Shown: positions 1,653 to 62,996 of the stretch, in pieces
How positions within the stretch are numbered: position 1 is the stretch's first letter
How the letters are laid out: the number at the start of each line of letters is the position of its first letter
Assembly: GCA_022495995.1 (NCBI GenBank)
Contig: JAFEMH010002514.1
Span: forward strand, 248,001 to 312,000
DNA from: Adenophora triphylla var. japonica
Lineage: Eukaryota > Streptophyta > Magnoliopsida > Asterales > Campanulaceae
Reading direction: 5' to 3'
DNA: 64,000 nt
Notes under the pieces: model-generated
Databases searched by the model: none
Told to the model about the DNA's origin: nothing
Seen by the model: only the letters and a program-made list of their open reading frames with translations
Position numbers and translations under genes: made by a program

Positions 1653-2134
1653 GGCAAAAATGGAGGTTCCTAGAGAAAAAGAAGCTCGAAATGACTGCAA
1701 ATGGGAGGTGAGAGAAGTTCAGACATCCTGAAAACACTTATCTCTTCCCCAAAAGCAAAGATGATATGTACGTACCTCTTTGCATGCTAGGTCTGTCCGT
1801 ACGGACCTCTTTGCAACATGGTCCCACGTTTTCAGCAAACAGTAAAACAGCCACTGTTCCCAGCAGGACCATGCTCCAAACTGCCCAAATTCTGGCCAAA
1901 GCCATTTCCGGAAACCATACACTAACCACAAATGCACTCCCAGCTCACGTGGCATGTAATAATAATAAGATAGCAACAATTCCTAGGACAATCCCCGGGA
2001 ATCACAAAATACGACATTACATCTCAAATAAAATACTTTGTTGCGCATATACAAAATGTTTTATTACAGGTACCAAAATGTCTGTTGCTAAACATAAAAA
2101 CAACAAAAATGGAAAGAGGGAAAGAAAATGAGCC
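1653..2134 (-). other. Spacer between the two TatA antisense genes, with paired palindromes
   Basis: This 480-bp non-coding stretch is the likely promoter and 5' UTR of the DUF7745-like gene. It holds two palindrome-CTCTTTGCA sites at 1768-1815. No other clear signal was seen. Confidence 0.5.
1768..1815. promoter_or_regulatory. Two palindrome + CTCTTTGCA sites before the DUF7745-like gene (TatA)
   Basis: GTACGTAC (1768-1775) is followed at once by CTCTTTGCA (1776-1784). GTCCGTACGGAC (1795-1806) is followed by the identical CTCTTTGCA (1807-1815). The second core is the same as in TatA's LTR (48898-48915) and before its PMD gene (46797-46840). The sites lie about 115-165 bp upstream of the presumed ATG at 1652. 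Regulatory function is inferred. Confidence 0.55.
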
Positions 2135-3027
2135 CTACTCTGACTCATCATCATCAACCTCATCAAACGAGAAGTCAGGCATCTCGGCAAACTCGCCAGC
2201 CACACCCTCGTCATCAGAATACTGGACCCCCTCCTGAGGTGAGTACTCAAAGTACTCTGAAGGGTCAAACCCGGTGAAAGGATCAAAGAAGGGAGGCCCC
2301 AACGAACCCTCTCCCTGTGCCTCATGCGAAGGCCAAAACTGGTGAAGAATCGGCGGCCTCTGGACCACCGAAGACGTCCCTGCATCTAAACTATGCCACC
2401 CCGAATGGGTCCCTCCTGCTGTGGCCCTGGCTCAGCCCTCGACAAAGGAGCATCCACAGAATGCCTCGAAGGCATCGGCTCGTATGCCGGCACACACTGC
2501 GAAGACCTGTAAGACAGCTTCCCTGCCATCTTCTTCGCAAAGGACCGCATCCCCACGAAATGGCTGGTCAACATGTCAAAGGATCTCCCCGAGACCTGCG
2601 CAAGTAAACAATGAAAGAAACATTCAGCTAAAAAAGATACAGTCATACTCAACAAAAAGAGAAAAATACAGAAAAGATGCCAAGATGGAAAAGAGTAAGC
2701 ACACTCACCGGAGCATCCGGGTCAACCCGATAGGCAACAGGAGCCTGCTCAGGGACGGGCACTGACACCCTTCGCCTCGATGAGTCCCCGCGGACATATG
2801 TAAAGTTCGTCCCAGGCACCAGAACATCTGGGGGATGTGGTGGGCCATCCTGCCTCTCCCTCGCCAACACATGTGGTGTCCTCAACTTCCTCCTGACGAA
2901 GGCCCCGTACTCCTCGCCATACAAAATAAAATCCTCGGCACTCACGCCCCCAGGTACCTGTCGTACTCCAGCACGTCAATGTCACGAGGATGCATCATCC
3001 CAAAGGGCGGATCCTTCGGAGCCATAG
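2135..3027 (-). pseudogene. Antisense PMD-like gene of TatA, 3' part (end of exon 3, exon 4)
   Basis: This continues the gene that begins at 46631 and is split by TatB. Exon 3 resumes at 3027 and ends at 2709 before a GT donor (2708-2707). Exon 4 starts at 2595 after a polypyrimidine-AG acceptor and runs to the stop at 2135. Exon 3 encodes the FVRRKLRTPHVL and VSVPVPEQAPVAYRVDP motifs, which align with TatC FVEQRLRTPQKL and FMIPVPDTREPRYTLPP. Exon 4 ends in an acidic tail (DEVDDDESE), as all three copies do. Frameshifts lie near 2950 and 2385. Its function is unknown. Confidence 0.7.
3023..3027. repeat. TSD of TatB, left copy (catag)
   Basis: The five bases before the first TG of TatB are identical to 44594-44598. 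Confidence 0.93.
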
Positions 3028-3430
3028 TGTAAGTACCCAAATCCGGATCGCCAAAATCCGTTAAAAGTTAACCGAAATCCGTTAACTGGCCCGCTCCAGG
3101 TTAACTGGAACCCGTTAAGCGCCCCGTTCTCAAGCCAACAAGACGTCCCAGAACTGCGCCGTGCATCCCAATGTTGAAGCGTACTCAACACACGTTGTCA
3201 CACGTAAAAGTACAGCTTCTCCTGAAAAATGCACTTTTCGGCACTTTCGGGGGGCGTTTCAGACATTTTCCGGACAGTTATTTAAAAAACGGACAAAACC
3301 GGGAATAATGGCATGAAAAACCATGCCCTGGTGAGTCACAGGGGCACGTGGCACGCATGCCACAGCCCTCCGGTCAACATCAATCAGATTTCAGAGTGAA
3401 AAGACCAAAATACCCCTAAGATGTTGTCAC

Positions 3431-3560
3431 AGTCCGTCCGGACTCTTTTTCAGGCAAAATTGAGTTGCCAGCAAGTCCCCCCAATTTCAAAAATATCACA
3501 AAACCCCCTGAAATTCAGGTTAAGTCCGTTCGGACTCTTTTGCAAATTTATCCTATAAAT
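3431..3560 (+). promoter_or_regulatory. Core promoter of TatB 5' LTR: two palindromes and TATA box
   Basis: AGTCCGTCCGGACT (3431-3444) and AGTCCGTTCGGACT (3523-3536) are perfect or near-perfect palindromes, each followed by a CTTTT run; the second continues CTCTTTTGCA. TATAAAT follows at 3554-3560, 18 bp downstream of the second site. All six counterparts in the 3' LTR keep this spacing. Confidence 0.7.
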
Positions 3561-5005
3561 ACAGAGGGCTGTCAAAACATTTGAAGGAGGAAAAATATCA
3601 TCTATTTTCACCATAGCCACGGCCCAAACCAGTTTCACCCTCTCCCGAGCCCCGTTTTGCCTCGATTTGGGTGAAAACTTCATATTTCATCCAAACACGA
3701 ACCAAACAACCTCGAAACACCATTCCAAACACTAAATTGTATCCCGTATACGCCTTCCGAGCCAAAAGAGTCAACCCCTAGCCATAGGTAACACTCTCTC
3801 TCCCTAAACACTCGTTCCGTCTCGATTTACGTGCCAGTCGCTACAACCGTTTCAGACGAAAGTCATTGAAATGTAGACGACACCGTCAACGGGGTTCGAT
3901 ACGTTTTAGTCCCGGATCTCTTCTCTTCCCGTAAGAGAAGTAATCTCGAGTTAAAACGACGTTCCGGCCCCGTTTCTTTACCTTTCTGTCATTTACAATT
4001 CCGGATCGTTTGATCCGTTGAATGTCATTTACTTTACGCAACTTTATAGTCCAAACCGTTTGGTTTGTGATAGTCATTTAACGGTCCGGATCGTTTGATC
4101 CGTTGAATGCTATTTACTTAATGCACCTGTAAAATCTGGGTCGTTTGATTCCCATAATACCGCACTTTAAATACTATCATTTACAAGTCCGAGCCGTTTG
4201 GCTTGTGATAGTATTTACTTATCAAAGTCCGAGTCGCAAAAACAATTCGTTGATCGCATATCATTTAATGCTTTTTTCCCGTAAAATCGCTAACAATGTA
4301 ATGCCCGGTTCAAAACCGGAGTTCGACATTCGAACTCTCTTTCAAAACGCGCAAATGACGTTTGGCATCCAAACGATCATCTTTAAACTCAAAACCCGAC
4401 ATTTGACATTCAAATCTCATTTAATGTTTTTTTCTCGTAAAATCGCTAACAATGAAATGATCGGTTCAAAATCAGAGTTCGGCATTCGAACTCTCTTTCA
4501 AAATGCGCAAGATGACGTTTGGCATCCAAACGATCATCTTCAAACTCAAAATCCGACGTTTGACATTCAAACGCTCCTTTCTTAAAAGTCAACATTTGAC
4601 ACTTAAGTTAACAGTTCAAAATCATCACTCGCATCACTTTTTCCTAAAAAACTCCAAAACCGACGTTTGTCATTCAAACACTCGCTTTTTCTAAAAGGAA
4701 TCACAAAATAAATGTTTGATATTCAAACCAAGATTAAGCTTGTCATTCAAGCCCCCATTTTCAAAATGCAAACACACACACACACACATACACATTTTCA
4801 AGAAAGGTAGAAAGACTCGTCATACGAGGCATTTCGGGTGATCTCAAAATACTCTTTCTGAAACATAACGTGACCTTCATTTTTGCTATCAATAAAAACG
4901 ACACCCCGTTTCAAAGCCTTTTTCTATGTTTTTGCTACCAATAAAAACGACACCCCTTTCCACTAAGCTATTTTTCAAGGTTTGGGCTCAAAATACAAAA
5001 CCGCG

Positions 5006-5015
5006 TGGCGACTCC
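5006..5015 (+). other. U5 copy of the PBS core (TGGCGACTCC)
   Basis: Ten bases identical to the start of the PBS at 5100, located 94 bp upstream inside the LTR. The same box occurs near the end of the other Tat LTRs here (44500-44520, 49789-49797, 53158-53166, and reverse strand near 33797, 59741 and 60197). Confidence 0.6.
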
Positions 5016-5099
5016 TCTCCTTCCCGAAAGCGAGGTCTCAAACAACAATCCGCGAAAGACAACCGCGTTCGCCGCGCGCGAATCCCGGGTAATTTCAGT

Positions 5100-10608: not shown

Positions 10609-10706
10609 CTCTCACAAGGAAAGCCATCATGGAACTAGACGCTCAAGAAAACCGTCTTTGGGACTAGAATCAAGCTCAGAGGACTCACAGGGACCAAGCC
10701 CTTAAA

Positions 10707-16399: not shown

Positions 16400-17239
16400 T
16401 GTGAATGTGGTGCCCAAGATAAGCGGCTCCCTTTTTTTGTTTTACTTATTTTTTTGGAACCACTTTTTCGTGTAAGGGGGATCACCGCCTCACATCAGTT
16501 TGGAAACGTCCAGTTTAAATTGAAAAATGGAGTCTCCACGCCATTTTGATTCCCTCAAAACTTTGAAAAAAAGGATTTGGATCCGGAGGTTAAGTTACCC
16601 TTTGGAAAGAACAGATCGTCGTTCACCCAAAGAGCCTTGCCGAAGCAAGTCTTCCAAGATCCGCTTTTCATACTTGCCTTAATGTTTTCGTGTGTGGGAT
16701 GTGTGTTTTGAAAAGGAGGAACCAAGTGGTCTTCCGGACATATAAACCATGAGTTGGTTATCGCTTGGGATTCCTTGGATTTTTATGTATTAGGGACTTT
16801 GGTCCCGTTCTCATCTTGGACTTGTGATCATCATGATGAGACCTTGGGTCACATGTGATCAAGATAGGGACACCGTTTTTAGAGTCCAAGGATGAGACCC
16901 TTTAGAAAGGAGTGGCCTTTGCCTATTGACCCTACATCTTGAGACGATTTGGACTTCTTTGGGGCATTTATGCTCGTCTCAAGTGATGATCGGAGATATG
17001 TGGCTAGGGCTCTTCCTTTTCTAAAGGAGAATCCATCTATGGCATCTTTGAATGGAAGAAATGACGTAAAGATAGGACCTTTACATCATCTCGCTCTAAG
17101 AGATGCTCCAAGTACCAAGGGGGACTAGGGAAGGGGTATAAAGATTGGATCTTTATACTCATCCTATGCCTTTTTGTGCCTTATGAAGGTCACTAGGCAA
17201 TCCTAGGAGAGAAATCCAACCATGAGGGACATGGGGGAT

Positions 17240-17520
17240 GCATGTTTAAGCTAAAGATGACATTTTTAATGAAAAGATGACATTTTAAGTGCAAAGGATG
17301 CTACTTGGTTGCAAAGGATGCTTCTTTGATGTAAAGAATGATTTTTAATGCAAAGGATGCAACTTTGTGTGAAAAATGGCATTTTATGCGCAAAGGATGC
17401 ATAAAGATGTCATTTTAGGAGCAAAGGATGCTACTTTGATGTAAAGATAACACTTTTAATGCAAATGATGCAACTTTATATGTAAAGATGGCATTTTAGG
17501 AGCAAAGGATGCTACTTTCA
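17240..17520. repeat. Short degenerate tandem repeats in TatC LTR
   Basis: Units of about 28-32 bp built on GCAAAGGATGCTACTTTG and TAAAGATGACATTTTA alternate. The same array is at 34520-34790 in the other LTR. Confidence 0.8.
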
Positions 17521-17945
17521 CATCACCATGTGAGAGATCCACCCTAGAACAAGCCTTTTTTGAGGTCTTATTTGTTCATCCTTGGGTTGGATCTTCCATG
17601 GATCCTATGTGATAGGGGAAAGGGGGTAATATGATTTACATGCCTAAAGATGGGATCTTTAATGACAATATCAAGTACCAAGCAAGTATATAGCAATATG
17701 TAAAGCAAGGAGAAAATATATGACATAAACACAAGTATAATGCAAGGTAAAGGGGAGGAGAGGTTACCAATGATGGTGTCCCTCTTTCTTCTTGAAGTTT
17801 GCCTAAGGAAGGGACCAACTTTTGAAGGTTTTGATGAGGAGGGAGGTGGTTTTTGACACTCTCAGCTCACTAGAATTTCGTGGTGGTATTTTGGCAGAGT
17901 AATGTTACTGAAAATCCCCCCCCTAATATGATTAGAGGAGGTCTC

Positions 17946-18021
17946 TATTTATAGGCACTCTGGAAGCAGCTAATGAAGCCGTACGGCTGTAACCCCATGG
18001 CAAATGAGGCCATGCGGTCAT
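17946..18021 (-). promoter_or_regulatory. Promoter of TatC 3' LTR: TATA box and palindrome pair
   Basis: TATAAATA on the minus strand (17946-17953). Upstream of it are AGCCGTACGGCT (17977-17988) and a second site, GACCGCATGGCC followed by TCATTTGCC (about 18002-18019). The 5' LTR has the same arrangement. Confidence 0.65.
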
Positions 18022-18237
18022 ATCCTGAGATGACTCAGCTTATTTCTAGAACCATGCAAGGTGGCCTTCTAGAAGGGAATTTCCACCGAAGGACTATATG
18101 GAATTTTAATTCCTTGCAAGTCCTTCGCCCCTCGGAAGGTTCGAAAACTTTTCCGAATTGCCCCTGAACTTTAGGAAAGTCTGGGGAATTGCCGGGAAAC
18201 TTAACCGGAAGGCATGAGCCAGATTTGGGTACTTACA

Positions 18238-19410: not shown

Positions 19411-19606
19411 TTTTGACAATTCGGAGGTTGTCACCTAGCGTTATTTCGTTATAACGGAAGTAACGGAGGCGACTCGGGAGGAAAACCTATTTGCTTAGAG
19501 ATAACCGATATCCTTTGGGAGAACAACGTTACTCTAGTTAAAGGATAACAGGAATTATATGCCTAAGTAGAAAGTCCAAGGGCATAAGTGTAATTTTCTG
19601 CTCAGA

Positions 19607-19685
19607 GCAAAAGAGGCCGCCCGGCATGAGATGAGGGCAAAAGAGGTCGTGCGGCTAGAAATTTATTTTCACTAGATTATATAAA
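19607..19685 (+). promoter_or_regulatory. Likely promoter of the TatC antisense PMD-like gene
   Basis: Two sites of the form GCAAAAGAGG + CCGCCCGG (19607-19624) and GCAAAAGAGG + TCGTGCGG (19637-19654) precede a TATATAAA box (19678-19685), which is 116-123 bp before the ATG at 19801. The site type is the one found in TatC's LTRs. Confidence 0.6.
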
Positions 19686-19800: not shown

Positions 19801-22394
19801 ATGGATCCAGAAGGGAACCCGATACCTAGGCAAGCACAAAGAACCATATCCGAAGCCGCTAGAAGGAGGAGGAGGGAGCTTGTTCGCACAGAGAGGAAGT
19901 ATGACTTCAATACGCCTCCATCGGAGCTTTATCCCGATAGGGGAGAACACAAATCAAAGAAACCTCAATCGGTTGGGGTAAGCATTCTTGATTTGCTTGA
20001 TTCCGTCAATTTTGATTGACTTAGGGCTTGACCCGATTTTTAGGAATTTTTCAAATTTTCCTAGGATTTTTGTTGATGGTTTTGGAATTTTGATGATTAA
20101 CCTATGAGGCTAAGGGGATAAATGAACATGCATGTGCAATTTATTTGAAAGATAATGGGAATGACCCATTTTTTTTCGAAGATAATGTCTAAAATGTGAC
20201 GGAGTCCTTGCATGTACTGGAACTAGGTCAATTCTTGATCATGGATGAGAAAACAAAATTTTGGACGATGAAAAGGATTCTTGCATGCCATTTTTGAAAA
20301 ATTAATGCTTACGTGCAAAGAATGTTGAAAATTGGAATTTTTGTGTCTTTGAAAGCAATGTGCTTGACATGACATGTTTCAAGTGATGAAAGACACGTTT
20401 TCTAAGCAAAAGATGCTAGAAATCTTTTATGAATGCTTTTCTTTGAAAATATGTGCACTTTTGAATATATGCATGCTTTTGAAATAAGATGAAGGCCTGA
20501 CACATTTTTGTTGTGTTTTCCTACAGGAGAACAAGTCTAGGGGACCTTCTGAGGTTGCAATGAAGCTATGGGAGAGGATGCCCAATTTTGAGAAGGATGG
20601 GGTGAACCCCAAGCAGCTTGTGATGGCTACTGGCCTTGATCTGTTCACTGATGCCATTGGCAGAGGTATCCACGTGACCTCCAAGAGTAAGGGGCTGGTC
20701 CAGGCCCTTTCAGAGTTCTGGTGGGACACCACCCACAACTTTCACCTTAGCTGGGGGGAGATTATGGTGACTCCAGCCGACTTTACTGCTATCACTGGCT
20801 GCAGTTCACTGGGAGGCCTGTGACTTGGAGGGACTACATCACGGCTGAGGAATTTAGGGCTCTGGTTGGGTTTGACCTCCGTCCTAAGGGGATTGGGATA
20901 GAGACTAGGTATGTGGAGGTGGCGGTCCAGGACTGTATGCAGGGATTTGCCGCCAATGAGGTGACCGCCCACCAGCTCGCGAGAGCTTTCTTGTGGTTGA
21001 TGCTGTCAGTCACCATCTTTGCGAACTCTGGGACGCTGGCTATGGTTTGTTTGCTTGATTCTTTAGATAACCTGGATGAGGTTAGGGCGGTCTCTTGGGG
21101 TGAGGTCGGATTGACGGAGCTTTACTTCTCCTTGGATATGTACTACCGGAACAAGGCTGCCTCTATGGACTGCTTCTCTTTTGCGCTTGAGGTAGTCTCA
21201 TTTTCTTTTCTCTCTTTTATTTTCTGTCTTTAGACTTTTATGAGATAAAATGACCCTTTTATGTTTTGAACATGCAGGTCTGGTTTTGTGAGGTGATTGG
21301 GTTCTTTCCGTGGAACCAGCAGAGTGATACGGAGATCTTCCCGGCTATGATCCGTTGGAGGGGAGATGCGAGAGACAAGTTCACCGGAAAGACCCGGATC
21401 AATTTTGACTACAAGATGGTGAGACCAATCATCAACAGAGATGGACATGATGGAGTTGACTTCTACCCTTGGGGGAGGTACCCGGAGGTGCTGCTAGGGG
21501 ATGCCGTGGAGGCAACTAGGCAGAGGAGGTGGCTTACGAGTTTGACATGTGATGTCATTTACTTGGGGGACCATTTTTCTAGGCAGCATGGCCATGTCCC
21601 TCCCTTGGACGCCATCACTCCTCACGATCCTCCAGCACGGATGCTGCAGCCCAGGGACTGGTCAGAGGATGATATTGCTAGGTATCAGGCAGGCGTGGCG
21701 GCCGTGGAGTATTTTGACTTGGCTACCCCGTATGCCACCTTCGTGGAGCAGCGGTTGAGGACGCCACAGAAGCTAGTGAAGCTGGCTGTCACTCAGGGGT
21801 ATGGGGAAGCTGAGCCTACTGACCCGCCTATGCCTCCTGCTCATCTCTCATATGTGGTCAACGGGGTACCGAGGAGGTTTATGATTCCCGTTCCTGACAC
21901 GAGGGAGCCCCGGTATACTCTGCCGCCTGACAGCACTGTGAGTACATTTAGGGTCTTTTCTTTTTTCCGGATTTATTTGCTTTCTGCAATTCTGAGATTT
22001 TCCTGAGATTTTCTGAGTTTTCTTCTCTTTCTCTCAGGTTCCTGCTCGCTCATAAGATGGATTGGTACCACAGAACAGGGGGTGGAAGGATGTGTGCCGG
22101 TCCCTTCTGAGGAAGTTGGCATGCGCTTCCAGGGCTGGGGCAAATATGCAGGAGCCCGTGCGCAAAAGAAGGCACGTCGGCAGCACAGCATCCACCTCCT
22201 CGGCCTCAGAGTACGCTACCTCCTCTACTAGTGCCATGCCTCGGGGACAGGGACCCAATACCGGCATTCTGGAGCAGCTAGCCGAGTACGAGCACGTGAA
22301 CGTGAACCTTTCTGATGTGAGTGACACGGAGGACTTGATGAGGGATCCTAGCTTCTATGATCTGAGTAGCGACGACGAGGAGTCGGAGGCTTAG
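19801..22394 (+). pseudogene. Antisense PMD-like gene of TatC (four exons)
   Basis: Exons 19801-19977, 20527-21191, 21278-21937 and 22038-22394 are joined by introns with GTAAG/GTAG/GTGAG donors and pyrimidine-rich AG acceptors; exons 1-3 are in phase. Exon 1 is arginine-rich. Exon 2 carries the PMD-like core (SEFWWDTTHNFHLSWGEI, VTPADFTAITG). Exon 3 continues YPWGRYPE, LTCDVIYLGDHFSRQHG and FVEQRLRTPQ. Exon 4 ends acidic (SSDDEESEA). Breaks: a one-base loss near 20818 and a TAA at 22053. The nearest known families are plant-mobile-domain / MAIN-like proteins, linked elsewhere to transposons and silencing control; the function here is unknown. It is transcribed opposite to gag-pol. Confidence 0.75.
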
Positions 22395-22738
22395 GATTCC
22401 TTAGAATTGACCTAGGAGGCAGGAAACAAACAATGAACACTTTTTTATGCACATTTTATTTGTTTTTCATTTTATTTGGGAGCAGATGGGGCGAAAACAA
22501 TGTATTACTCTTTTATTTACTTTTCTATTTTATGCTTTATGAATTTGCATATTACTTGAGCCTCGGGGCAGTTTTTTGCTTGGAATTGGGGCTGAAAATG
22601 GGACAAAATGGTTTGTGATGACATATGACTGTATGGTTGGTATTTGGATATGTTTTTGTACAGGTTTCATTGAGAAAGTGGGGTGAGAACTCCACTTGGG
22701 CAGCAACTTTGATTGCTGCAGATTTTTTTCTGCAGATG

Positions 22739-22791
22739 GCAAATGAGGCCGTCCGGCCTGGACCTGGGGGCAAATAAAGCCGTGCGGCTGG
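22739..22791 (+). promoter_or_regulatory. Palindrome pair before the TatC DUF7745-like gene
   Basis: GGCAAATG + AGGCCGTCCGGCCT (22746-22759) and GGCAAATA + AGCCGTGCGGCT (22778-22789). The second 12-mer is identical to the one in TatC's 5' LTR (35246-35257). The pair lies about 140-180 bp upstream of the presumed start at 22927. Confidence 0.6.
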
Positions 22792-22926
22792 AAGTTCTGT
22801 TTGAACTGGTTTTTTACAAAATAAAACCAAGGCTTAGCCATTTCATTTCATTTTCACCCTAGACTTGTTCCAACTGATCCCAGAGCATATTTTTGACCAA
22901 AAGACATCAACTTTGATCACCTTGCA

Positions 22927-24430
22927 ATGGAGAAACCCGTTAGATTGCCAAAAGGGGAAAAGAGACCGTTTTCTATCAGATCTTCAATCTTGGATGAGGC
23001 ATAACTTTCAATCCAACAAGAGACTGTTTGATACCACCTTCAAGATCAAGTCTTCATGGAATTTAAAGGATCTCCCGCCCGATTGGGACCTTTTGAGAGC
23101 CGCGGTAAGGTTTTGGGACGTCCGGAGACATGTTTACTGCTTTTCTTACAACGAGCTTGTCCCAACCTATGAAGACTTCCGAGCCTTGATTGGGGGTCAG
23201 GAAATTGAGGCCATATCGATTCCTCTGATCAAAGACGTGCCGGTAGCAGTAAAGTTGGCATCTTTTCTGCAAATCTCTCTGGGAGAGGCTGAGGGGATGA
23301 TGGTAGCCCCTGATCGGGTTGACCTTTCTGATATCCCAAGCAGGTTTGGGTTCTCGGATACGGCTACGACCACTATGTCTATGGATGCCTTTATCCTCTG
23401 TGTGTTCTCGTCTCTGTTCACGGCCGAGTCTGTGGGGATTTGTCAGGGTGGCCTCTTGGACATGGTTAGGGATTGCAGAGCTGGGAAGGATATTATCCCC
23501 CTGGTTTTGGGTGAGACTCTTCATGGTATTGACAGGATGGCTAGAGGAGACCATTTCATGAGGTCTGGGAGCCCGACTGTGTTGACTTTGTGGCTGCAGG
23601 AGAGGCTCGGGGCTTTGCCAGGGGCTTTGCCGACTCAGTGCCCTTGGGTGATTTCTCAGAGGGGTGCACCTAGGCAGCATGAATAGGGTGACTGGGAGCT
23701 GATGATGGCTAGGTTATCCACTTCGGATATTCACTGGTGGGTACCTCACTGGAGGCTGCAGACCCGGAGGATATTTCAGGAGTCCTACGTGGTGAGGGTT
23801 CCAGGGTTTTCTTGGTCATCCTTCTACATACCCCGCTTGGTATCCAGGCAATTCGAGGCTTTCCAGGAGCCATTGGGAGATTGGGAGGACACCCGTACCA
23901 TGGAGGTGGTGCCTTTAGACATGAGGGATACAGCCAGCTTCTCATTCTTCTCGAGGGCTTGGACACATATTGCTTTCCCACCCAGGGCCATTCTCAAGAG
24001 CAGGAAAAGTACCATATTGACTATGGCCTACTTGGACTGGTATGAGAGGGAGATGGGAGCGACTCAGGTCATATTGTGAGAGAGACGTCAGACTTTATTG
24101 GGGGCTGACAGTGACTCGAGTAGGACTCTGAGGGAGACTGAAGCCATGGCGAGTCGCCACAACCAGTCAGGTGACCTTATCAGAGATATGGAGGCTCGAT
24201 ACGAGAGGCTTTCTGAAGTCGCTCCCTTGACTGAGGCTCAGAGGGAGGAAGTGCGGACTCGTGCCCGGGTTGAGAGGGCACTTATTGACACAGGTTTGAT
24301 GGAGGCTCCAGTGAGGATACTTGAGATTGGGATGTGGGAGACCGACATCATTCAGAAGAAGAGGAAGAACACTCGACGAGGTCAAGGCAAAGGGAAGAAG
24401 ACCAAAGAAGACTCAGTGAATGACAACTGA
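22927..24430 (+). pseudogene. Antisense DUF7745-like gene of TatC
   Basis: The start is taken at ATG 22927 (MEKPVRLPKG), with a shift near 22960 into the main frame. That frame then runs to 24430 with only two stops: TAG 23684, where homologues have Gln, and TGA 24077, where a homologue has Trp. Core motifs are DWDLLRAAVRFWDVRRHVY, VPTYEDFRALIGG, and PLVLGETLHGIDRMA, then VPHWRLQTRRIFQESYVVRV. The tail is lysine/arginine-rich (KKRKNTRRGQGKGKK), as in TatA and TatB. It is a DUF7745/PMD-like protein of unknown role. An upstream TTG frame from 22865 is less likely. Confidence 0.78.
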
Positions 24431-33661: not shown

Positions 33662-33664
33662 AAC

Positions 33665-38250: not shown

Positions 38251-38785
38251 GGAAAGAGCAATGAAAACCTTCAACAATTTAAGAGAGAAATTCAGTGATT
38301 GATCAGAAGCAAACGTGCTGTTTCCACAATTGCAAAAACTGAACTACAATTTAAAACAATCTGGAAATTGAATCCGGTCAGTGGATTAGGATTTGCTTTT
38401 CAAGTTAGAATTGACTCTCAGGCCGGCTTACCTCAATTTGGAAACATTTCCAAACCATATCCTATTCAAGCCTCATTTAAACTACGTGCACCCGTGGTTT
38501 AAATCAAGCACTACCAACACCACTTTCGCCCCGGGCTCGTGCAACAGTGCAATTAATTAAATAACAGTGCATATAGACATAAATTTTGACCAGTTCAAAT
38601 TTTGTCCATGTTTCATTATTATTTATTTTTGATCAACCTACTTGCTTATTTGCCGAAAATAACAGAAGATAATCACTAAATAAATGTGCAAAATACAAGG
38701 TTCCGCCTCAAAGGCCTTCTCGAATTCAATTTAAATTGTTTGGACAATACACACATTTTGTCTAAAAATAAATCAAGAAAGAGGA
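38251..38785. other. Spacer between TatB antisense genes
   Basis: AT-rich, no coding sequence and no clear promoter element seen. Confidence 0.5.
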
Positions 38786-41283: not shown

Positions 41284-44200
41284 TGTAAGTACCCAAATCC
41301 GGATCGCCAAAATCTGTTAAAAGTTAATCGAAATCCGTTAACTGGCCCGCTCCAAGTTAATCGGAACCCGTTAAGCTCCCCGTTCTCAAGCCAACAAGAC
41401 TTGCCGAAACTGCCAAGTGCATCCCAACATCGAAGCATACTCAACACACGTTGTCACATGTAAAAGTACAGCTTCTCCTGAAAAATGCACTTTTCGGCAC
41501 TTTCTGGGGGCGTTTCGAACATTTTTCGGACAGTTATTTAAAAAACGGACAAAACCGAGAATAATGACGCGAAAAACCATGCCCTGGTGAGTCACAGGGG
41601 CACGTAGCACGCATGCCACATCCCTCTGGTCAACATCAATCAGATTTCAGAGTGAAAAGACCAAAATACCCCTGGGATGTTGTCACAGTCCGTCCGAACA
41701 CTTTTGCAGGCAAAACAGAGTTGCCAACAAGTCCCCCTAATTTCAAAAATACCACAAAACCCCCTGAAATTCAGGTTAAGTCCGTCCGGACTCTTTTGTA
41801 AATTTACCCTATAAATATAGAGGGCTGTCAAAACATTTGAAGGAGGAAAAATATCATCTATTTTCACCATAGCCACGGCCCAAACCAGTTTCACCCTCTC
41901 CCGAGCCCCGTTTTGCCTTGATTTGCGTGAAAACTTCGTATTTCATCCAAACACGAACCAAACAACCTCGAAACACCGTTCCAAACACTAAATCGTATCC
42001 CGTATACGCCTCCCAAGCCAAAAGAGTTAACCCCTAGCCATAGGTAACACTCTCTCTCCCTAAACACTCGTTCCGTCTCGATTTACGTGCCAGTCACTAC
42101 AACCGTTTCGAACGAAAGTCATTGAAATGTAGATGTCACCGTCAACGGGGTTCGATACGTGGTGAGTCAGAGGGGCATGTGGCACGCATGCCACAGCCCT
42201 CTGGTCATCATCAATCAGATTTCAGAGTGAAAAGACCAAAATACCCCTGGGATGTTGTCACAGTCCGTCCGGACTCTTTTGCAGGCAAAACAGAGTTGCC
42301 AGCAAGTCCCCCCAATTTCAAAAATACCACAAAACCCCCTGAAATTCAGGTTAAGTTCGTCCGAACTCTTTTGCAAATTTACCCTATAAATACAGAGGGC
42401 TGTCAAAACATTTGAAGGAGGAAAAATATCATCTATTTTCACCATAGCCACGGCCCAAACCAGTTTCACCCTCTCCCGAGCCCCTTTTGCCTCGATTTGC
42501 GTGAAAACTTCGTATTTCATCCAAACACGAACCAAACAACCTCGAAACACCATTCCAAACACTAAATCGCATCCCGTATATGCCTCTCGAGCCAAAAGAG
42601 TCAACCCCTAGCCATAGGTAACACTCTCTCTCCCTAAACACTCGTTTCGTCTCGGTTTACGCGCCAGTCGCTACAATCGTTTCGAACGAAAGTCATTGAA
42701 ATGTAGACGTCACCGTCAACGGGGTTCGATACGTGGTGAGTCACAGGGGCACGTGGCACGCATGCCACAGCCCTCTGGTCAACATCAATCAGATTTCAGA
42801 GTGAAAAGACCAAAATATCCCTGGGATGTTGTCACAGTCCGTCCGGACTCTTTTGCAGGCAAAACAGAGTTGCCAGCAAGTCCCCCCAATTTCAAAATAC
42901 CACAAAACCCCCTGAAATTCAGGTTAAGTCCGTTCGAACTCTTTTGCAAATTTACCCTATAAATACAGAGGGCTGTCAAAACATTTGAAGGAGGAAAAAT
43001 ATCATCTATTTTCACCATAGCCATGGCCAAACCAGTTTCACCCTCCCTCGAGCCCCGTTTTGCCTCGATTTGCGTGAAAACTTCGTATTTCATCCAAACA
43101 CGAACCAAACAACCTCGAAACACCGTTCCAAACACTAAATCATATCCCGTATACGCCTCCTAAGCCAAAAGAGTCAACCCCTAGCCATAGGTAACACTCT
43201 CTCTCCCTAAACACTCGTTCCGTCTCGGTTTACGCGCCAGTCGCTACAACCGTTTCGGACGAAAGTCATTGAAATGTAGACGTCACCGTCAACGGGGTTC
43301 GATAGGTTTTAGTCCCGGATCCTCTTCTCTTCCCGTAAGAGAAGTAATCTCGGGTTAAAACGGCGTTCCGGTCGCGTTTCTTTACTTTTCTGTCATTTAC
43401 AATTCCGGATTGTTTGATCCGTTGAACGTCATTTACTTTACGCAACTTTATAGTCCGAACCGTTTGGTTCGTGATAGTCATTTAACGGTCCGGATCGTTT
43501 GATCCGTTGAATGCTATTTACTTAACGCATCTTTAAAATCCGGGTCGTTTGATTCCGTTGATACCGCACTTTAGATACTGTCATTTACAAGTCTGAGTCA
43601 TTTGGCTCGTGATAGTATTTACTTATCAAAGTCCGAGTCGCAAAAATGATTCGTTGATCGCATATCATTTAATGCTTTTTTCCTGTAAAATCGCTAACAA
43701 TGTAATGCCCGGTTCAAAACCGGAGTTCGACATTCGAACTCTCTTTCAAAACGCGCAAAATGACGTTTGGCATCCAAACGATCTTCTTTAAACTCAAAAC
43801 CCGACATTTGACATTCAAATCTCATTTAATGCTTTTTTCCCGTAAAATCGCTAACAATGAAATGCCCGGTTCAAAACCGGAGTTCGACATTCGAACTCTC
43901 TTTCAAAACGCGCAAGATGACGTTTGGCATCCAAACGATCATCTTCAAACTCAAAATCCGACGTTTGACATTCAACCGCTCCTTTCTTAAAAGTCAACAT
44001 TTGACACTTAAGTTAACAGTTCAAAATCATCACTCGCACCACTTTTTCCTAAAAAAACTCCAAAACCGACGTTTGTCATTCAAACGCTCGCTTTTTCTAA
44101 AAGGAATCACAAAATCAACGTTTGACATTCAAACCAAGATTAAGCTTGTCATTCAAGCCCCCATTTTCAAAATGCAAACCCACACACACACACACATGCA

Positions 44201-44593
44201 CACATTTTCGAGAAAGGTAGAAAGACTCGTCATACGGTCGTTTCGGGTGATCTCAAAATACTCTTCCCGAAACGTATCGTGACCTCCGAACCTAACAATC
44301 TCTGGTACTAAAAAAGCCTTTTCCTCATTTTCGCTACCAATAAAAACGACACCCCGTTTCAAAGCCTTTTCCTCGTTTTCGCTACCAATAAAAACGACAC
44401 CCCGTTTCAAAGCCTTTTCCTAAGTTTTTGCTACCAATAAAAACGACACCCTTTTTCACTAAGCCATTTTTCAACGTTTGGGCTCAAAATACAAAACCGC
44501 GTGGCGACTCCTCTCCTTCCCGAAAGAGAGGTCTCAAACACCAATCCGCGAAAGACAACCGCGTTCGCCGCGAGCGAATCCCGGGTAATTTCA
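41284..44593 (+). repeat. 3' LTR of TatB (3310 bp, with promoter segment triplicated)
   Basis: Same termini as the 5' LTR but 1240 bp longer. The extra length is two more copies of a ~575-bp segment (units from 41587, 42162 and 42736) plus an extra copy of a ~47-bp GCTACCAATAAAAACGACAC repeat at 44290-44440. Confidence 0.93.
41587..43312 (+). repeat. Triplicated ~575-bp promoter segment in TatB 3' LTR
   Basis: Three head-to-tail units start with GTGAGTCA at 41587, 42162 and 42736. Each has two palindromes and one TATAAATA box (41810, 42385, 42958) and ends in CAACGGGGTTCGATA. The 5' LTR has one unit (3331-3903). Confidence 0.93.
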
Positions 44594-44598
44594 CATAG
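44594..44598. repeat. TSD of TatB, right copy (catag)
   Basis: Identical to 3023-3027. Confidence 0.93.
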
Positions 44599-45784
44599 GG
44601 GGCACACCTGGGCCATGCTGCCAGAAGACCCTCTCCCCCAAATACATGACATTACAAGTCAAGCCCCACAACATCTTCCTCTTCTGTGTCACCACGGGAC
44701 CGCCCTCAAGCTCTTCGCCGCCATACCGAGCCCAGGGGTACAGCTCAAACTCCGCCGGGGTATCTCTCTCCAAGAACTCCTATACATCCCGATATGTGAT
44801 AGTGAGCTTCCCCCTGACCGTCCTCCTCCTCCTCAAAGGACGGGCACAGCCAAGCATAGCAGGATAGGCCCCCATGGCCTCAGCATCCCGATCCCACGAA
44901 AAACACCGGAAGATCTCATAAAACCACACCTGCAACAAAAGCAGATAAGGCTCAGGGCAAAAGAAGACGGAGAAATGACAAACTGCTAAATCACAAACCG
45001 CAAGAAACTTATACCTCCAACGCAAAATTGAAGCATCCCAGGGAACTGGCCACACCTCGGGTAAACATGTCCAAGGAAAAATAGAGCTCCGCCAAGCCTG
45101 CCTCGCCCCAAGCAATCTCACCAACTCTCCCCAAGTCCACCAAGCTCTCCAATAGAGGAAAAGGAGCAAAGGAAGAGTGATTCGAGAACAAAGTATCGGA
45201 AAGAGCAAACCCCAAGAAAGAGCACGCCAGCTGCTCAGCCGTCAACAAGCCGGTGCCCCGGCGATAGGCCCCAATGTTGGCCGTAATCTGCGCCTCTACA
45301 TCGCCATACAGCATGCCCATGCCCCTACGAGGAGAAGGTGCAAAGCCCAGCAGCTCCGCCAGCGTCCCATCGGACATCCTGGCCCGCCATCTCACTGGCC
45401 CTCCTTTGAAGGAAAGCCCAGTAATCGCCGCAAAGTCGGTGGGAGTCACCGTCACCTCTCCCCAGCTCAGATGGAAGGTATGCATGGTGTCCCACCAATA
45501 CTCGGACAAAGCCAAGAAGATGCTCTTGTTCTTCCTTGTCTCCGCAATCCGGCAAGATTCTCAACGAATGCGCCCAAACCAGAAGCAAAGACCAGCGTCT
45601 TAGGACTCGGTCTACCCTCCCTGGAGATATCCGGCAAATGCTGCCACAGCTCAACTACAGCCTCGAGCGACCCCCGAGACTTCATCTTCTTTGCCTTTCC
45701 GGACAAAGGCCCCTCATCCTGCAGGTAAACACAGCAAAATTACATCAATCACAGTACTTAATGCAAAATATCAAGAGGAAACGA

Positions 45785-46796: not shown

Positions 46797-46849
46797 GGTC
46801 CGTACGGACCTCTTTGTAAACAAAGATGATCCGTACGGACCACTTTGCA
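46797..46849 (-). promoter_or_regulatory. Palindrome pair before the TatA PMD-like gene
   Basis: GGTCCGTACGGACC (46797-46810) + TCTTTGTA and ATCCGTACGGAC (46829-46840) + CACTTTGCA (46841-46849), 165-215 bp upstream of ATG 46631. The core is the one in TatA's LTR. Confidence 0.6.
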
Positions 46850-48600: not shown

Positions 48601-49878
48601 TGTAAGTACCCCAATCTGGATCACTCTCTTCCGAACGCACGAGAAACACCGCAGACTCACACAAACGCAGTCTCGAACACCATAGCCCTCTAAAACCCAA
48701 AAAACTACCAACCAAACCAAGGGGGGTCTTTCTGGGATAAAAAAGCACAAAAGGACTTTTTAGGAATTTCGGAAAATTTGGAAAAGCATGGAAGGTCTGT
48801 ACGAACCTCTTTGCACCAGACATAATTATTACGAAATCCTCTTAAGGTCCACATTATTTCCTCAAATCTGGGAAAACTAAATTTTTGGTTTTCATGGAAG
48901 GTCCGTACGGACCTTCTTGTACGTTTTCCAAAACTATAAATAGAGGGCTCCCCCTCCCTCATTTGACACACATCCCTCTTCTCCTCTCTCTCCCTAAGCC
49001 TTCAGACTCCCCTTATAAGACCATTTGGGGCACTTCCGGTCCCTTTCGGTTCCTTCTGGGGCCTTCCGAGCTCCCTTGCGGTGTTCCGAAGCCCTGCCGA
49101 GCACTACCGAGCGCTCCCGAGATGCTCCCGCGCTGCCCCAAGGAACTCTCGAGGTATTGTGAGGCCCCTCGTGGTACTCCGAAGCCTTGGATGGTCTATT
49201 CCGAGGCATCCCGGCCTTTTTCGAACCAAACCGACGATCCCGACGCACGTCGAAACTCTGCCCGAACGCAACCGACGATCCCGACGCACAATGAACCTCT
49301 GCCTTAATCCAGTCAACGATCCCTGTGAACCCAATGCACGCCAAAACTCTGCCCGAGTACACACCTGACAATCCCGAGGCACGCCGAAGCTCTGTTCGCA
49401 GACAATCGGCACATCCCGAAGCGATCCCGGTCCATCCCGGAACACTATTCTATCCTCAAACACTATTCCCCAGCGGAAGACAAACACGAACCAACATTCG
49501 TAAGGCTTCCTTCCTACACTATTTCAATACATTTCAATATGTAGTGTACAATGTAGACATCCGATACAACATGCATTTTTAAAAGCACATACACACACAC
49601 ACACAACATTTAAAGAAAGAAAGGGTACCGAAAGACTCGTTTTTACGAGGCGACTCGGGTGAGCTCTAATATTCTAATATTCTCTTCTCGAGGAGTAACC
49701 TGACCTCCGAACTCAAAAATCTCATCACACAACAACAGTTTTTAAATTGATGCCTTTTCTCAATGTTTGGGTCTAAATCAAAACGGCGTGGCGACTCTAC
49801 AAGCAAAACACAGCGAGACACCTCCCGACAATGCGAGATGCCGGGGCTCTGCGCGCGATCTAGATTCGGGTAATTTCA
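48601..49878 (+). repeat. 3' LTR of TatA (1278 bp)
   Basis: Starts TGTAAGTACCCCAATC after a PPT and ends GGTAATTTCA with no PBS behind it, so it is a 3' LTR. It contains the promoter (48794-48942), many CCCGAGGCA/CCCGACGCA-type short repeats (49080-49440), and the U5 box GGCGTGGCGACTC near 49787. Confidence 0.9.
48794..48942 (+). promoter_or_regulatory. Promoter of TatA 3' LTR
   Basis: GGTCTGTACGAACC (48794-48807) + TCTTTGCA, then the perfect 18-bp palindrome AAGGTCCGTACGGACCTT (48898-48915), then TATAAATA (48935-48942). Confidence 0.7.
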
Positions 49879-51681: not shown

Positions 51682-53260
51682 TGTAAGTACCCCAATCTGG
51701 ATCGATCCTCATCCGACGCCTGCTGTAAGTATCCAAATCCGGATCATCAAAATCCGTTAAAAGTTAACCGGAATTCGTTAACTCCCCCTTTCCGAGTCAA
51801 CGAGACTTCCCAGGACTGCCCCGTGCATCCAAATTCTAAAGTGTACTCAACACACGTTCTCACACGTAAAAGTACCACTTTCCTCGAAATACGCAATTTT
51901 CGGGGTCTTTCAGGCTTTGATTTGCTATTTTTTAGAGTCTCAACCTTTCGGAGGTCATAACTTCCTCGTACGAACTCCGTTTTGGGCCCACCGCATATCA
52001 AATCGTACGCGAGAACAAGATCAATACTTATAAATAATTTAATTTTGGAAAATTTGGAAATGGTGTCTTCTGTCATGCGACACACTTTGCCCCCATACAT
52101 AATTATTACAAAATCCTCTTAAAGTCCACTAGATTCTCTTAAATCCTGGAAAACCAAAAAACTGGTGATGGTTGACAGTGTCGTGCAACACATCTTGCCA
52201 AGGGACATTCTAATTATGAAATCCCCTTAAGGTCCACGATATTCCCTTAAATCTAGGAAAATCAAAAAACTGGTAATGGTTGCCAGTGTCGTGCGACACA
52301 ACCTGCCAGAATCTGTACCTTATAAATAGAGGCCTCCTCCTCTCATTTTTCACATACCTCCCTCTTCTCTCCTCTCTCCCAGCCTTCAGGAAGCCCCTTT
52401 AAGACCCTTCGGGGTAATCCTGGTCCCTTTCGGTTCCCTCCGAAGCATTCTGAGGCCCCTCGTGGTACTCCGAAGCTCTGCCGAGCACTGTCGAGTGCTC
52501 CCGAGACGCTCCCGAGCTGCCCCGAGGCACACCCGAGGCATTCTGAAGCCTTACCAATCCATCTCAAAGCCCTGCCAAGCCATCCTGAGCTGTCCCGACC
52601 CATTCCGAGCACAACCAACTATCCCGACGCACGCCAAAACTCTTCCCAAGCACAACCGACGATCCCGACGCATGCCTGACCTCTGCTTGAGTCCAGTCAA
52701 TGATCCCTGTGATCCCAATGCATGCCGAAACACTGCCTGAGTACACACCTGACAATCCCAAGAAACACCGAAGCTCTGTCCGCAGACACCGGTACATCTC
52801 GACGCAATCCCAGTCCATCCTGAAACACTATTCAATACTCAAACACTATTCCCCACCGGAAGACAGACATGAACCAACATTGGTAAGGCTTCTTTCCTAC
52901 ACTATTTTAATACATTTCAATACATAGCATACGATGTAGACATTATATACAGCATGCATTTTTAAAAGCACACACACACACACACAACTTTTAAAGAAAG
53001 AAGGGGTACCGAAAGACTCATTTTTACGAGGCAACTCGGGTGAGCTCTAACATTCTCTTCCCAAGGCATAACCTGACCTTTGAACTCAAATATCTTATCA
53101 CACAACAACAGTTTTAAACTAAGCCTTTTTTTAATGTTTTGGGCTAAATCAAAATGGCGTGGCGACTCTACAAGCAACGAAATGCAGCGAACACACGGTC
53201 CCGACTGACCAATGCCAGATGTCGGGGCGCCCGCGCGCCTCTCGTATCTGGGTAATTTCA
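51682..53260 (+). repeat. 3' LTR of TatD (1579 bp), mosaic
   Basis: Starts TGTAAGTACCCCAATC like TatA, but after 42 bp restarts with TGTAAGTATCCAAATCCGG (51724) like TatB's LTR. TatB-like sequence continues to about 51890, and TatA-like sequence follows (from about 52030). Ends GGTAATTTCA. TATAAATA at 52321-52328. Confidence 0.88.
52071..52328 (+). promoter_or_regulatory. Promoter of TatD LTR with three palindromes
   Basis: TGTCATGCGACA (52071-52082) + CACTTTGCC, GTGTCGTGCAACAC (52178-52191) + ATCTTGCC, GTGTCGTGCGACAC (52286-52299) + AACCTGCC, then TATAAATA (52321). Same layout as the other LTRs with a different palindrome. Confidence 0.65.
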
Positions 53261-60680: not shown

Positions 60681-61804
60681 CCACGCGGATGGGGTTGCAG
60701 TGTCAATATTTTTACAGTTTCCAGTTTAGTCACAGTAATTTCTAGAAAGTTAACTGGATTTACAGGACTTAACTGGAATTGTAATTGAAAAGACAGAAAG
60801 TAAAGGGGGTGTTTGGATTTTGGCATCCATGCTTGTCCTCTCTTTCCCTAGACTTTGATTAGTGGTCATAAGTGATGAATCCACTTAATCAAGTCATCCC
60901 GGGGGTACGTTAGGACTTTGTAAGCATTTCATTTACTAGGGGAAAAGAGGAATTTGACATGAAAGTAAAATTGCAAGAGAGTTAGGTCAAGATGTATCAA
61001 CTTTAGAGGAAGATCTCTAAGGTGGTCATGAGATAACCATCCTTGAGATGTATACTCAAGTGTATCTCCTACATCTTGTGTGACCTATTTTGTAAGTCTA
61101 GATAATTTTCATCCAAGGAAAGTGTTCTAAGGTGAGCATCTTAGACTAGGGAGGGGGATTTGCAAGGAAGTAAATGATATGGACCATTTGAAATGATCAT
61201 CCATGGAGATTGAATCCAAGATGACCATATTTAGGTCAAGAAAGCAAGTAAAGACTAGAAATATAAAGAGGCATGAAACTAGAAAATATAGACCATTTGA
61301 AGTGGTCATCCATGGAGATGAACTCCAAGATGACCATCTCCTAGGTCAAGCAAGCAAGCAAGTTCCAAGTAAAGTAAAAGGGAAGTGGGGAATGACATGA
61401 AAGTAAAAGAAAATGTGGATCACCCTAGAAGATCATCCATGGAAATGGGTTCCATAGAGATCCTCTTGGATCCTTGGGACAAGAGGGGAAGGGGATGAGC
61501 AAGTAAGTAAATAAACAAGGCTACATCATTTATATGTGAAATGTAGGCATGAATGAAAGAGATTTGAGTAAGAGGGGTGAGGGTTTACCAATGTTTCTTG
61601 GGTTGTTGTTTAGGGTTTGGGAGATTTCAAGGCTTAAGAGTGGTTTGGGATGGATTTGGTGTTGGACTTGGTGATGGATTTGGTGTTGGATTTTGAATTA
61701 TGAAGGTGTAAATGGCTATTTGAGGATAGATTTTGACAGTATAACAATAGGTTTTTGGATTTTTTGGGTTTTTTCTGTCTTGTTAAACTGAGGAAGAAGG
61801 GTTG

Positions 61805-61884
61805 TATTTATAGGTTGTCTGGATGACAATCTTATCCGCGTGGAAAAGATTGTAGATGCAATCTTGTCCACGCAGATGACCCCA
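61805..61884 (-). promoter_or_regulatory. Promoter of LTR-F
   Basis: TATAAATA (61805-61812, minus). Upstream are two imperfect palindromes, AATCTTATCCGCGTGGAAAA (from 61828) and GCAATCTTGTCCACGCAGAT (from 61859). Confidence 0.6.
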
Positions 61885-62113
61885 GCAGCGTGCCTGATCT
61901 GTGCAGAAAAGCAGTTTTGGCATTTTGCTCTTGGTCAATATTCCCTTTTATTGGAAATGACAAATTTCCAGCTAGGTATTTGTCCATTTTTTTATTCATA
62001 AGAAGTCCTTCCTCATTCAAATTGTCAAAGCAATGTCCAAAATGCCCCTAAATGATTATAAATCATTAATTTGGGCTGACGGAACATTAACGACCCAGAT
62101 TGGGGTACTTACA

Positions 62114-62996
62114 TTCAAGACGGACCGGCAGATCTTCGACATGCCTCGGGATGGCTTAGGTTTATTCGGGCAGAGGTTCGGCGTGCCTCGGGATGGCTAT
62201 ATGTATTCGGGCAGAGATTCGGCATGCCTCGGGATTGCGAGGTGTATTCGGGCAGAGGTTCCGCATACCTCGGGATTGCTAGGTGTATTCGAGCAGAGGT
62301 TCGGCGTGCCTCGGGATTGCTAGGAGTATTCTGGTAGAGGTTCGGCGTGCCTCGGGATGCCTCGGGATGGACCGGTGTGTGCCAGCAGGGCTTCGAGATG
62401 CTTCGGGATGCCTCAGAATGGCTCGGGATGGAACGGCAGGGCTTCAAGATGCTTCGAGAGCATCTCAGAATGGCTCAGGAGCATCTCGGGATGGCTCGGC
62501 AGGGCTTCGGGAGGGCTTCGAAGTGCCTCAGGAAGGCTCGGGAGGTCTCGGGAAGGGCCAGAGGGGCTCGAGATGCCTTAGAGTTTTCCCAGCTTGCTGG
62601 GGGGAGGAAGGAGAGAAGGGAGGTGTGTAGAAAATGAGAGGGGGAGCTCTCTATTTATAGGACTAGAAAAATTGCAAAGTGGTCCGCGCGGACACTTTTG
62701 CAATCCCAATTTTTTTATTTTCCCGGATTTGAGGGAATATTATGGACATTAAGGAGATTTTTTCATGATTATTTTCACCTTGCAAAGTGGTCCGCGTGAA
62801 CACTTTTGCAGGCTGACTATTTTTTAATTCCGAAAAAGTCCTTTTTGTCTCGTTTTATCCCGGAAGGGTCCTACCTTGGTTTGGTTGGTGGTTTTAGACT
62901 TTTTGGAGGTTACAGGTCTTTGGGATCACATTTGCGTGAGTCCACATTATTTTCCGTGTGCTCGAATGGGGAGTGGTCTGGATTGGGGTACTTACA
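62114..62996 (-). repeat. TatE LTR, proximal (U3/R) part
   Basis: Starts TGTAAGTACCCCAATCC at 62996 (minus). Contains the promoter and a field of CTCGGGATG/TTCGGGATG short repeats (62130-62590). Confidence 0.83.
62652..62810 (-). promoter_or_regulatory. Promoter of TatE LTR
   Basis: TATAAATA (62652-62659, minus). Upstream GTCCGCGCGGAC (62682-62693) is flanked on both sides by TGCAAAGTG / CACTTTTGCA, and a second such site spans 62781-62810. Confidence 0.7.

Follow-up and report, generated by a model that had tools for sequence, protein, structure and literature searches.

The VANC proteins of Arabidopsis VANDAL elements are encoded by the element itself and bind a short family-specific motif in its own noncoding DNA, and the available parts of the reports describe these motifs as lying in several copies in one orientation, coevolving with the protein, and having been multiplied by tandem repeats (PMC5735166, PMC10398659). 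We analyzed a 64-kb stretch of the genome of Adenophora triphylla var. japonica (assembly GCA_022495995.1, contig JAFEMH010002514.1, positions 248,001 to 312,000; "the window" below), which is a nest of Ty3/gypsy elements with TatC lying within TatB and TatB within TatA, and in which TatD and TatE are present as long terminal repeat (LTR) regions. In this nest, family-specific palindromic sites lie upstream of LTR TATA boxes and before antisense genes that encode PMD and DUF7745-like proteins. VANC is the closest working analogue, the likeness being one of logic, and the Tat sites are likewise a family-specific motif in the element's own noncoding DNA that is common to its control regions. However, the elements that encode VANC are DNA transposons of the MULE kind, whereas the Tat elements are LTR retrotransposons, and the binding of their sites is predicted here. 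For the Tat antisense proteins, Pfam points to PMD and DUF7745 rather than to VANC. The VANC motifs given in the accessible text, YAGTATTAY and AGTTGTMC, are not palindromic and contain no CpG, whereas the Tat sites are CpG palindromes with a tail and keep a fixed distance to the TATA box.

Two further groups of systems share parts of this arrangement. The Arabidopsis PMD proteins MAIN and MAIL1 function jointly, perhaps as heterodimers, and have been associated with a promoter motif named DOWN, which reads CATGCAGTTT in the MORC1 promoter; the excerpts available also state that PMD-A clades are exclusively Gypsy encoded and that an anti-silencing use of PMD by transposable elements (TEs) was suggested for MULEs (PMC7156037, PMC9899485, PMC5418596). 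The likeness is that PMD proteins work as partners and are tied to a promoter motif, and the differences, as far as the same excerpts go, are that DOWN is not a Tat palindrome, that host genes are the targets of genic PMD-C proteins, and that direct DNA binding was left open there. Retand, Grande, and RIRE2 carry antisense accessory open reading frames (ORFs) between pol and the 3′ LTR, suggested to be regulators, with tandem repeats nearby, and the Grande ORF has its own promoter; by contrast with the Tat elements, they encode Transposase_28 or other proteins, no cis site is named in the text available, and "mobile domain" occurs in neither main text (PMC11963269, PMC7264820). The roles of these antisense genes (PMC11963269, PMC7264820) and of the PMD domain (PMC7156037, PMC9899485, PMC5418596) are described as unknown in the passages available.

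PMD was reported in 57% of Ogre elements, and an additional RNase H lies between RNase H (RH) and integrase (INT) in angiosperm Ogre/Retand; the accessible part of this report mentions no regulatory site for Ogre/Tat elements with PMD extra ORFs (PMC6317226). The window elements are likewise Tat-clade Ty3/gypsy (Ogre-like), having LTRs with target site duplications (TSDs; TatB, 3028-44593, CATAG; TatC, 16400-35506, CCAGG), matches to gag, reverse transcriptase (RT), and RH in TatB, and matches to RH and integrase in TatC. In TatC, RT_RNaseH is followed by RVT_3 and then by H2C2/rve in the next frame, i.e., an additional RNase H stands between RH and INT as in Ogre, and the PMD extra ORF favors Ogre over Retand for the placement of these elements. 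We found no published report of the sites described here in a search that omitted most subscription journals and bioRxiv, which is not proof of absence, and GTCCGTACGGAC was not found in the searched literature.

A composite palindromic site at LTR and antisense promoters

The sites of the window share a common plan, a CpG-centered palindrome of the form YCGNNCGR with a TTTGCM tail starting 10 bp from the dyad. The first-pass annotation, made from the sequence of the window, had listed family-specific palindromes, each beside a TTTGCA/TTTGCC-like tract. We found all of them at, or a few bases from, the listed positions, and the tract proved to be a tail fixed at +10 in 22 of 26 sites, with no other offset used by more than four (the list was hand-curated from the window scans and leaves out a third TatD site). 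That third site, at 52076, has a perfect tail and is new. Exact palindrome matches are found at 3431, 3523, 41779, 42262, and 42836 (TatB), 46797 and 48900 (TatA), 17977, 22778, and 35246 (TatC), 52286 (TatD), and 62682 (TatE), while the remaining listed sites are variants one to four bases off, several of the CpG-to-TpG type, such as GGTCTGTACGAACC at 48794 and GTGTCGTGCAACAC at 52178; the weakest is the first TatA site, GATATGTACGTACC, centered at 1769. The identity noted previously between 22778 and 35246 was borne out, with AGCCGTGCGGCT at both. The tail had also been said to point always along the sense strand of the element, which holds for the other families but not for TatE, in which both half-sites carry a tail. 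This suggests that the full site may be an inverted dimer and that just one of its two halves retains a tail in the other families. The cores fall into three clear classes, TCCG, GCCG, and GTCG.

The geometry is also constrained. The proximal LTR site lies 29, 25, 30, 29, and 29 bp upstream of TATAAAT in TatA, TatB, TatC, TatD, and TatE, respectively. Paired sites are 30 to 31 bp apart in both TatA and both TatC antisense promoters and in the TatC LTRs, and 91 to 92 (TatB), 106 (TatA), 108 (TatD), and 108 bp (TatE) apart in the other LTRs. The LTR features are as follows.

3028..5097, + strand: TatB 5′ LTR; TSD CATAG read at 3023-3027 and 44594-44598; sites at 3431-3452 and 3523-3544
41284..44593, + strand: TatB 3′ LTR; promoter unit present three times, six sites centered at 41693, 41785, 42268, 42360, 42842, and 42933
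16400..18237, − strand: TatC 3′ LTR; TSD CCAGG read at 16395-16399 and 35507-35511; sites centered at 18013 and 17982
33665..35506, − strand: TatC 5′ LTR; sites centered at 35282 and 35251, 31 bp apart, the proximal one 30 bp before TATAAAT
48794..48921, + strand: TatA LTR U3; distal site centered at 48800, proximal site at 48906, 29 bp before TATAAAT, with tail CTTGTA, a 4/6 match
52070..52307, + strand: TatD LTR U3; three sites 108 bp apart, centered at 52076, 52184, and 52292, the last 29 bp before TATAAAT
62673..62802, − strand: TatE LTR U3; sites centered at 62687 and 62795, TTTGCA on both sides of the dyad, the proximal site 29 bp before TATAAAT

In the TatB 3′ LTR, the promoter unit of approximately 573 bp is repeated three times (41585-43353), giving the six sites, and the 5′ LTR has a single unit.

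These sites are far more frequent than expected. YCGNNCGR cores with at least six of seven symmetric pairs occur 14 times in the window, where 0.84 would be expected, and every one of them lies in a Tat LTR promoter or ahead of an antisense gene; a palindrome of this quality together with a fully matching tail (6/6) at +10 gives nine matches at eight places against 0.05 expected. A comparison with shuffled sequence, which the first-pass annotation had proposed, came out in favor of the sites: promoter regions (one LTR U3 copy per family and four antisense promoter regions) contain 13 sites against 0.037 in dinucleotide shuffles, and of the nine regions only the TatC LTR lacks a site at the threshold of this test. 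When a matrix was built with one family left out, 15 of the 16 held-out TatA, TatB, and TatE sites ranked in the top ten of approximately 128,000 positions. Chance palindromes, or inheritance without function, are hardly credible given these shuffles, the genome-wide counts below, and the within-element match at nonhomologous positions, even if related LTRs, such as the TatA, TatD, and TatE U3 regions, are alike by descent.

Across the host genome (2.48 Gb, 8,432 contigs), in which the TatA- and TatD-type cores were counted, the TatA core GGTCCGTACGGACC occurs 47,555 times, with approximately six expected from base composition, and the D-type core GTGTCGTGCGACAC occurs 573 times; the corresponding reversed controls, which preserve letters but not CpG order, gave 0 and 1. 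Among 63 listed places on one contig, 37 of the 39 gaps below 200 bp were 30 to 31, 99 to 100, or 105 to 107 bp, near the spacings in the window. Several A-type LTRs on this contig (e.g., 561966-562203 and 576852-577102) carry four exact cores spaced 107, 30, and 100 bp apart, in this or the opposite order, which is a larger number than in TatA of the window. The earlier observation of the sites is thus confirmed and is stronger than first stated.

Some other features were seen in passing. Palindromes like TGTCGCGTGACA without a TTTGC tail occur in three host loci, L025 (962-1099, several within 150 bp), L028 (4156), and L029 (2105), which perhaps belong to another element kind with D-like sites; no PMD or DUF7745 match was found in L025 and L028. 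Long tandem arrays adjoin the 3′ LTR regions (47282-48274, 50578-51416, and 63312-63976) and are partly common to TatA and TatD. A Ty1/copia element (RVT_2) lies between TatD and TatE (53738-59537) and contains none of the curated composite sites. A TatB ORF of 782 amino acids (10668-13013) has a weak G-patch match (21.1 bits, cutoff 22). Matches to the site pattern in 2 viral and 9 prokaryote stretches were taken as chance.

Antisense genes and the matching of their promoters to the LTR

TatA, TatB, and TatC have two antisense genes downstream of pol, one encoding PMD (PF10536) and the other a DUF7745-like protein (PF24924), with the following features.

720..1718, − strand: TatA antisense DUF7745-like gene; PF24924 E = 1.8e-4, 21.1 bits, below the curated cutoff of 26
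1763..1815, + strand: TatA DUF7745-like promoter; two sites centered at 1769 and 1800, 31 bp apart
2389..2975, − strand: TatA antisense PMD gene, C-terminal pieces, split from the rest by the TatB insertion
44594..45739, − strand: TatA antisense PMD gene, N-terminal pieces; PF10536 E = 1.2e-20, 74.4 bits, cutoff 34.9, on 45012-45560
46797..46849, + strand: TatA PMD promoter; two sites centered at 46803 and 46834, 31 bp apart
36777..38343, − strand: TatB antisense DUF7745-like gene, in several frames
39005..39870, − strand: TatB antisense PMD remnant
19606..19657, − strand: TatC PMD promoter; two sites centered at 19620 and 19650
20488..22003, + strand: TatC antisense PMD gene, in several pieces; PMD E = 1.6e-6, 28 bits, below the cutoff of 34.9
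22738..22790, − strand: TatC DUF7745-like promoter; two sites centered at 22752 and 22783, 31 bp apart
22838..24427, + strand: TatC antisense DUF7745-like gene, in several pieces; E = 1.4e-4, 21.5 bits, below the cutoff of 26

The curated PMD cutoff is passed by TatA and not by TatC, and a match to the 5′ half of the TatB PMD remnant was looked for and not found. Since none of the DUF7745 scores reaches the cutoff (TatB, 25.1 bits, being the highest), we call these genes DUF7745-like. Identity to the TatA protein is 51% and 47% in alignment, and 48 to 62% in pieces of at least 96 amino acids. The proportions of nonsynonymous and synonymous differences (pN and pS) among the DUF7745-like genes of TatA, TatB, and TatC are 0.32 to 0.37 and 0.76 to 0.82, respectively, and this synonymous excess indicates that the protein has been under purifying selection. 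Genome-wide, a first look gave 55,804 candidate DUF7745-like genes, of which 138 were scored; in 15 of these 138 the match is free of stops and the open frame spans 533 to 600 amino acids, indicating that the antisense gene is longer than the matched part. PMD and DUF7745 look distantly related, as suggested by a profile comparison (hhalign E 8e-4, with a probability of only 24%), by the overlap of a PMD query match with a DUF7745 match in locus L055 (E 1.5e-5), and by a WDxxxHxFxxxxxExTPTxxDF-like motif seen by eye in both. Protein searches gave 2 PMD relatives and 7,702 RT relatives (120 listed) and no DUF7745 relative at E 1e-3; the organism-named rows among the matches listed were all from plants, i.e., Vitis, Mucuna, Trifolium, Gossypium, and Rhododendron. 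Scans of viral contigs with the PMD protein, the RT, the PMD alignment, and the DUF7745 alignment found no relative, and a scan of genome contigs with the PMD alignment found none outside the host.

The sites before the TatA and TatC antisense genes had been proposed to match the core of their own LTR, and each of the four window clusters is indeed nearest to the LTR of its own element (TatA, 0.80 and 0.89, next best 0.62 and 0.71; TatC, 0.79 and 0.69, next best 0.56 and 0.55), while orthologous TatA and TatC antisense clusters are only 0.46 and 0.52 alike. With loci taken from the host genome (18 longer and 31 short stretches, numbered with L), the antisense core was nearest to the LTR of its own family in 13 of 13 clusters from families A, B, C, E, and F, whether 14 or 22 bp were compared, with three of the clusters (L017, L021, and L032) assigned to a family by protein, their LTR not being seen. 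Most sites were read from coordinates; for the other ten, a typed fragment that had to occur only once gave the position. Four L022/L032 sites in the B set were taken as LTR from the 91- to 92-bp spacing alone; when they are removed, B is still the best fit for the L017 palindrome (0.93). The PMD site and the LTR of L022 were assumed to belong to one element. Duplication of LTR pieces into the antisense promoters was rejected, since by eye the flanks are unlike outside the sites.

Individual elements show the same matching. In L016, four LTR and four antisense sites have GGTCCGTACGGACC in common, one of them with TGTCCGT on the left. Element F (L018/L019/L020) has single sites, CATCCGCGCGGACA in the LTR, CCTCCGCGCGGACA in the DUF7745-like promoter, and CCTCCGCGCGGATA in the PMD promoter. 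TatE, the internal part of which lies just right of the window, has an antisense TGTCCGYRCGGACCACTTTGCA against TGTCCGCGCGGACCACTTTGCA in the LTR. The B-like DUF7745 gene of L017, 77% identical to that of TatB, has AGTCCGGCCGGACT with the tail one base further out. The class is kept with DUF7745 kinship in this gene and in the C-like genes of L021 (72%) and L032 (74%). Among 11 stretches around the D-type core, five have TATAAA 27 to 29 bp away, one (L055) has the core 257 bp before a DUF7745-like match of 36.5%, and five show neither.

The pairing and the core are also conserved. Among 20 TatC-like DUF7745 promoters, hand-picked from the 138 scored matches as those starting at query residue 1 or 2, 19 keep the pair at 30 to 31 bp and the twentieth has one decayed site. 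The mean pairwise identity is 0.91 for the 8-bp core, 0.64 for the linker, and 0.81 to 0.86 for the flanks, and both core CpGs are intact at 35 of 40 scored places. It is very improbable that the repeats act in RNA, in dimerization or packaging, or serve as signals for recombination or insertion. Such a role would suit the U3 palindromes, which the genomic RNA carries at its 3′ end, and their sense-strand orientation, except in TatE, but the fixed 25 to 30 bp to the TATA box, the 30- to 31-bp pairs, the kept core CpGs, and the presence of sites at antisense promoters all point to double-stranded DNA near promoters.

Turnover between families is seen in the arms of TatD. Between the TatA and TatD LTRs, the spacer is identical at 59 of 79 positions (75%), the TATA region at 79%, and a further-upstream stretch at 85 of 124, whereas the arms outside CGNNCG are identical at only 5 of 16 (Fisher p 0.002 against the spacer and 0.0002 in a second comparison, values for which both sites within an LTR were treated as independent). 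The class of TatD thus changed on both arms, the surrounding DNA less so. The arms of TatD and TatE agree at 3 of 16 positions, and those of TatA and TatE at 12 of 16, which is not different from the spacer.

Candidate regulators of the sites

The constant frame with changing letters, the symmetry, the promoter position, and the within-family matching are as expected of a DNA-binding protein with coevolving targets. The explanation that we favor, with moderate confidence, is that the element itself encodes a dimeric regulator that binds the sites and would raise transcription or counter silencing; this is most likely to be the antisense PMD/DUF7745-like pair. PMD and DUF7745-like proteins are the natural candidates because their own promoters carry sites. 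They may act as a pair, and the regulator of each family would recognize its own palindrome and tail, both in the LTR, approximately 29 bp ahead of the TATA box, and in the promoters of the two genes that encode it. Once bound, it would raise transcription or keep silencing off, so that the element would control itself and not its neighbors. We infer the identity of the binder, its dimeric state, and the direction of the effect from sequence; activation or anti-silencing seems preferable to repression because the sites lie at promoter distance in very abundant elements.

Several observations weigh against this explanation. Loss of host PMD proteins releases TE silencing, as stated in the accessible parts of the reports (PMC7156037, PMC9899485, PMC5418596), so the direction of the effect could be either and an activating role should not be assumed. 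The leave-one-out matrix gave mixed ranks for TatC, from 3 to 255, with two sites 108th and 255th, and failed for TatD, whose sites ranked 126th and 137th. In the 20 TatC-like promoters, the identity of the arms with the gap (0.69) is lower than that of the flanks, and that of the tail (0.84) falls in the flank range, so only the core stands out. The tail side points to the LTR promoter but away from the antisense promoters. Departures from a TTTGCM tail at +10 are seen in family F, in L017, L022, and L032 at their B-like sites, and in the L020/L021 element, the presumed LTR of which has GGCCGAACGGCC before the TATA box without a TTTGC tail. Before the DUF7745-like gene of TatB in the window there is, by eye, only a deleted site remnant, CAGGCCGGCTTACC, at 38421, where the B-like copy in L017 has AGTCCGGCCGGACT. 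D-type antisense matching comes from one gene (L055), its LTR not seen, among 11 stretches. The inner TCCGNNCGGA is common to families A, B, E, and F, so the matching of LTR and antisense sites among these rests on the center and the outer bases. AlphaFold gave no usable model for either domain (mean pLDDT 34.8 and 50.8). Lastly, the L016 DUF7745-like protein is 53.7% identical to that of TatA (best-E match; the longest match gives 39.5%) and has the same core, whereas that of TatC is 53.4% identical to TatA and has a different core. Protein distance therefore does not simply determine core type, and the binder could be a host factor. The first-pass annotation had itself read the sites as targets of a dimeric factor, perhaps the antisense-encoded protein; the dimer-shaped sites, the match between LTR and antisense sites in all 13 clusters, and the genome-wide enrichment agree with that reading, and the failure of core type simply to follow DUF7745 distance does not.

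Host factors are commonly used by LTRs, and host transcription factors, with different members of one family serving each core class, could drive both the LTR and the antisense promoters, the elements having adopted host sites. The TCCGNNCGGA common to four families would be accounted for in this way, and so would L016 and TatA, with full cores alike and DUF7745-like proteins only 53.7% identical. We nevertheless consider it unlikely, as both arms change together within the sites of an element, also at unrelated positions and with the geometry constant, and as the TatA and TatD arms differ more than the flanking LTR DNA. Less probable still is an element-encoded binder other than the PMD/DUF7745 pair, such as another part of the antisense proteins, Gag, or integrase, or a PMD protein acting via a DNA-binding partner. 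A domain scan of the antisense frames recognized no DNA-binding domain, and no PDB relative of the PMD alignment was found at E up to 1; the authors of the MAIN/MAIL1 work, in the passages available, also allow for a separate factor reading the DOWN motif (PMC7156037, PMC9899485, PMC5418596). What speaks against such a binder is that the PMD and DUF7745-like genes have the sites at their own promoters.

A more far-reaching form of the PMD/DUF7745-like explanation can be put forward tentatively. PMD and DUF7745 might constitute a new class of sequence-specific DNA-binding protein, acting as a heterodimer on a family-specific composite site at the LTR and at their own promoters, with the tail read by one partner, hence the one-sided TTTGCM. 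The pair would be a private, self-reinforcing activator or anti-silencer that switches specificity at family splits, and the motif systems of the host MAIN/MAIL proteins would be its domesticated descendants.

In either form, a defined 22-bp target that occurs both in the LTR and before the antisense genes makes their function, and that of the PMD domain, directly testable. If the explanation is true, self-encoded family-specific control would extend from VANDAL DNA transposons to very abundant plant LTR retrotransposons, and the PMD domain would gain a molecular activity.

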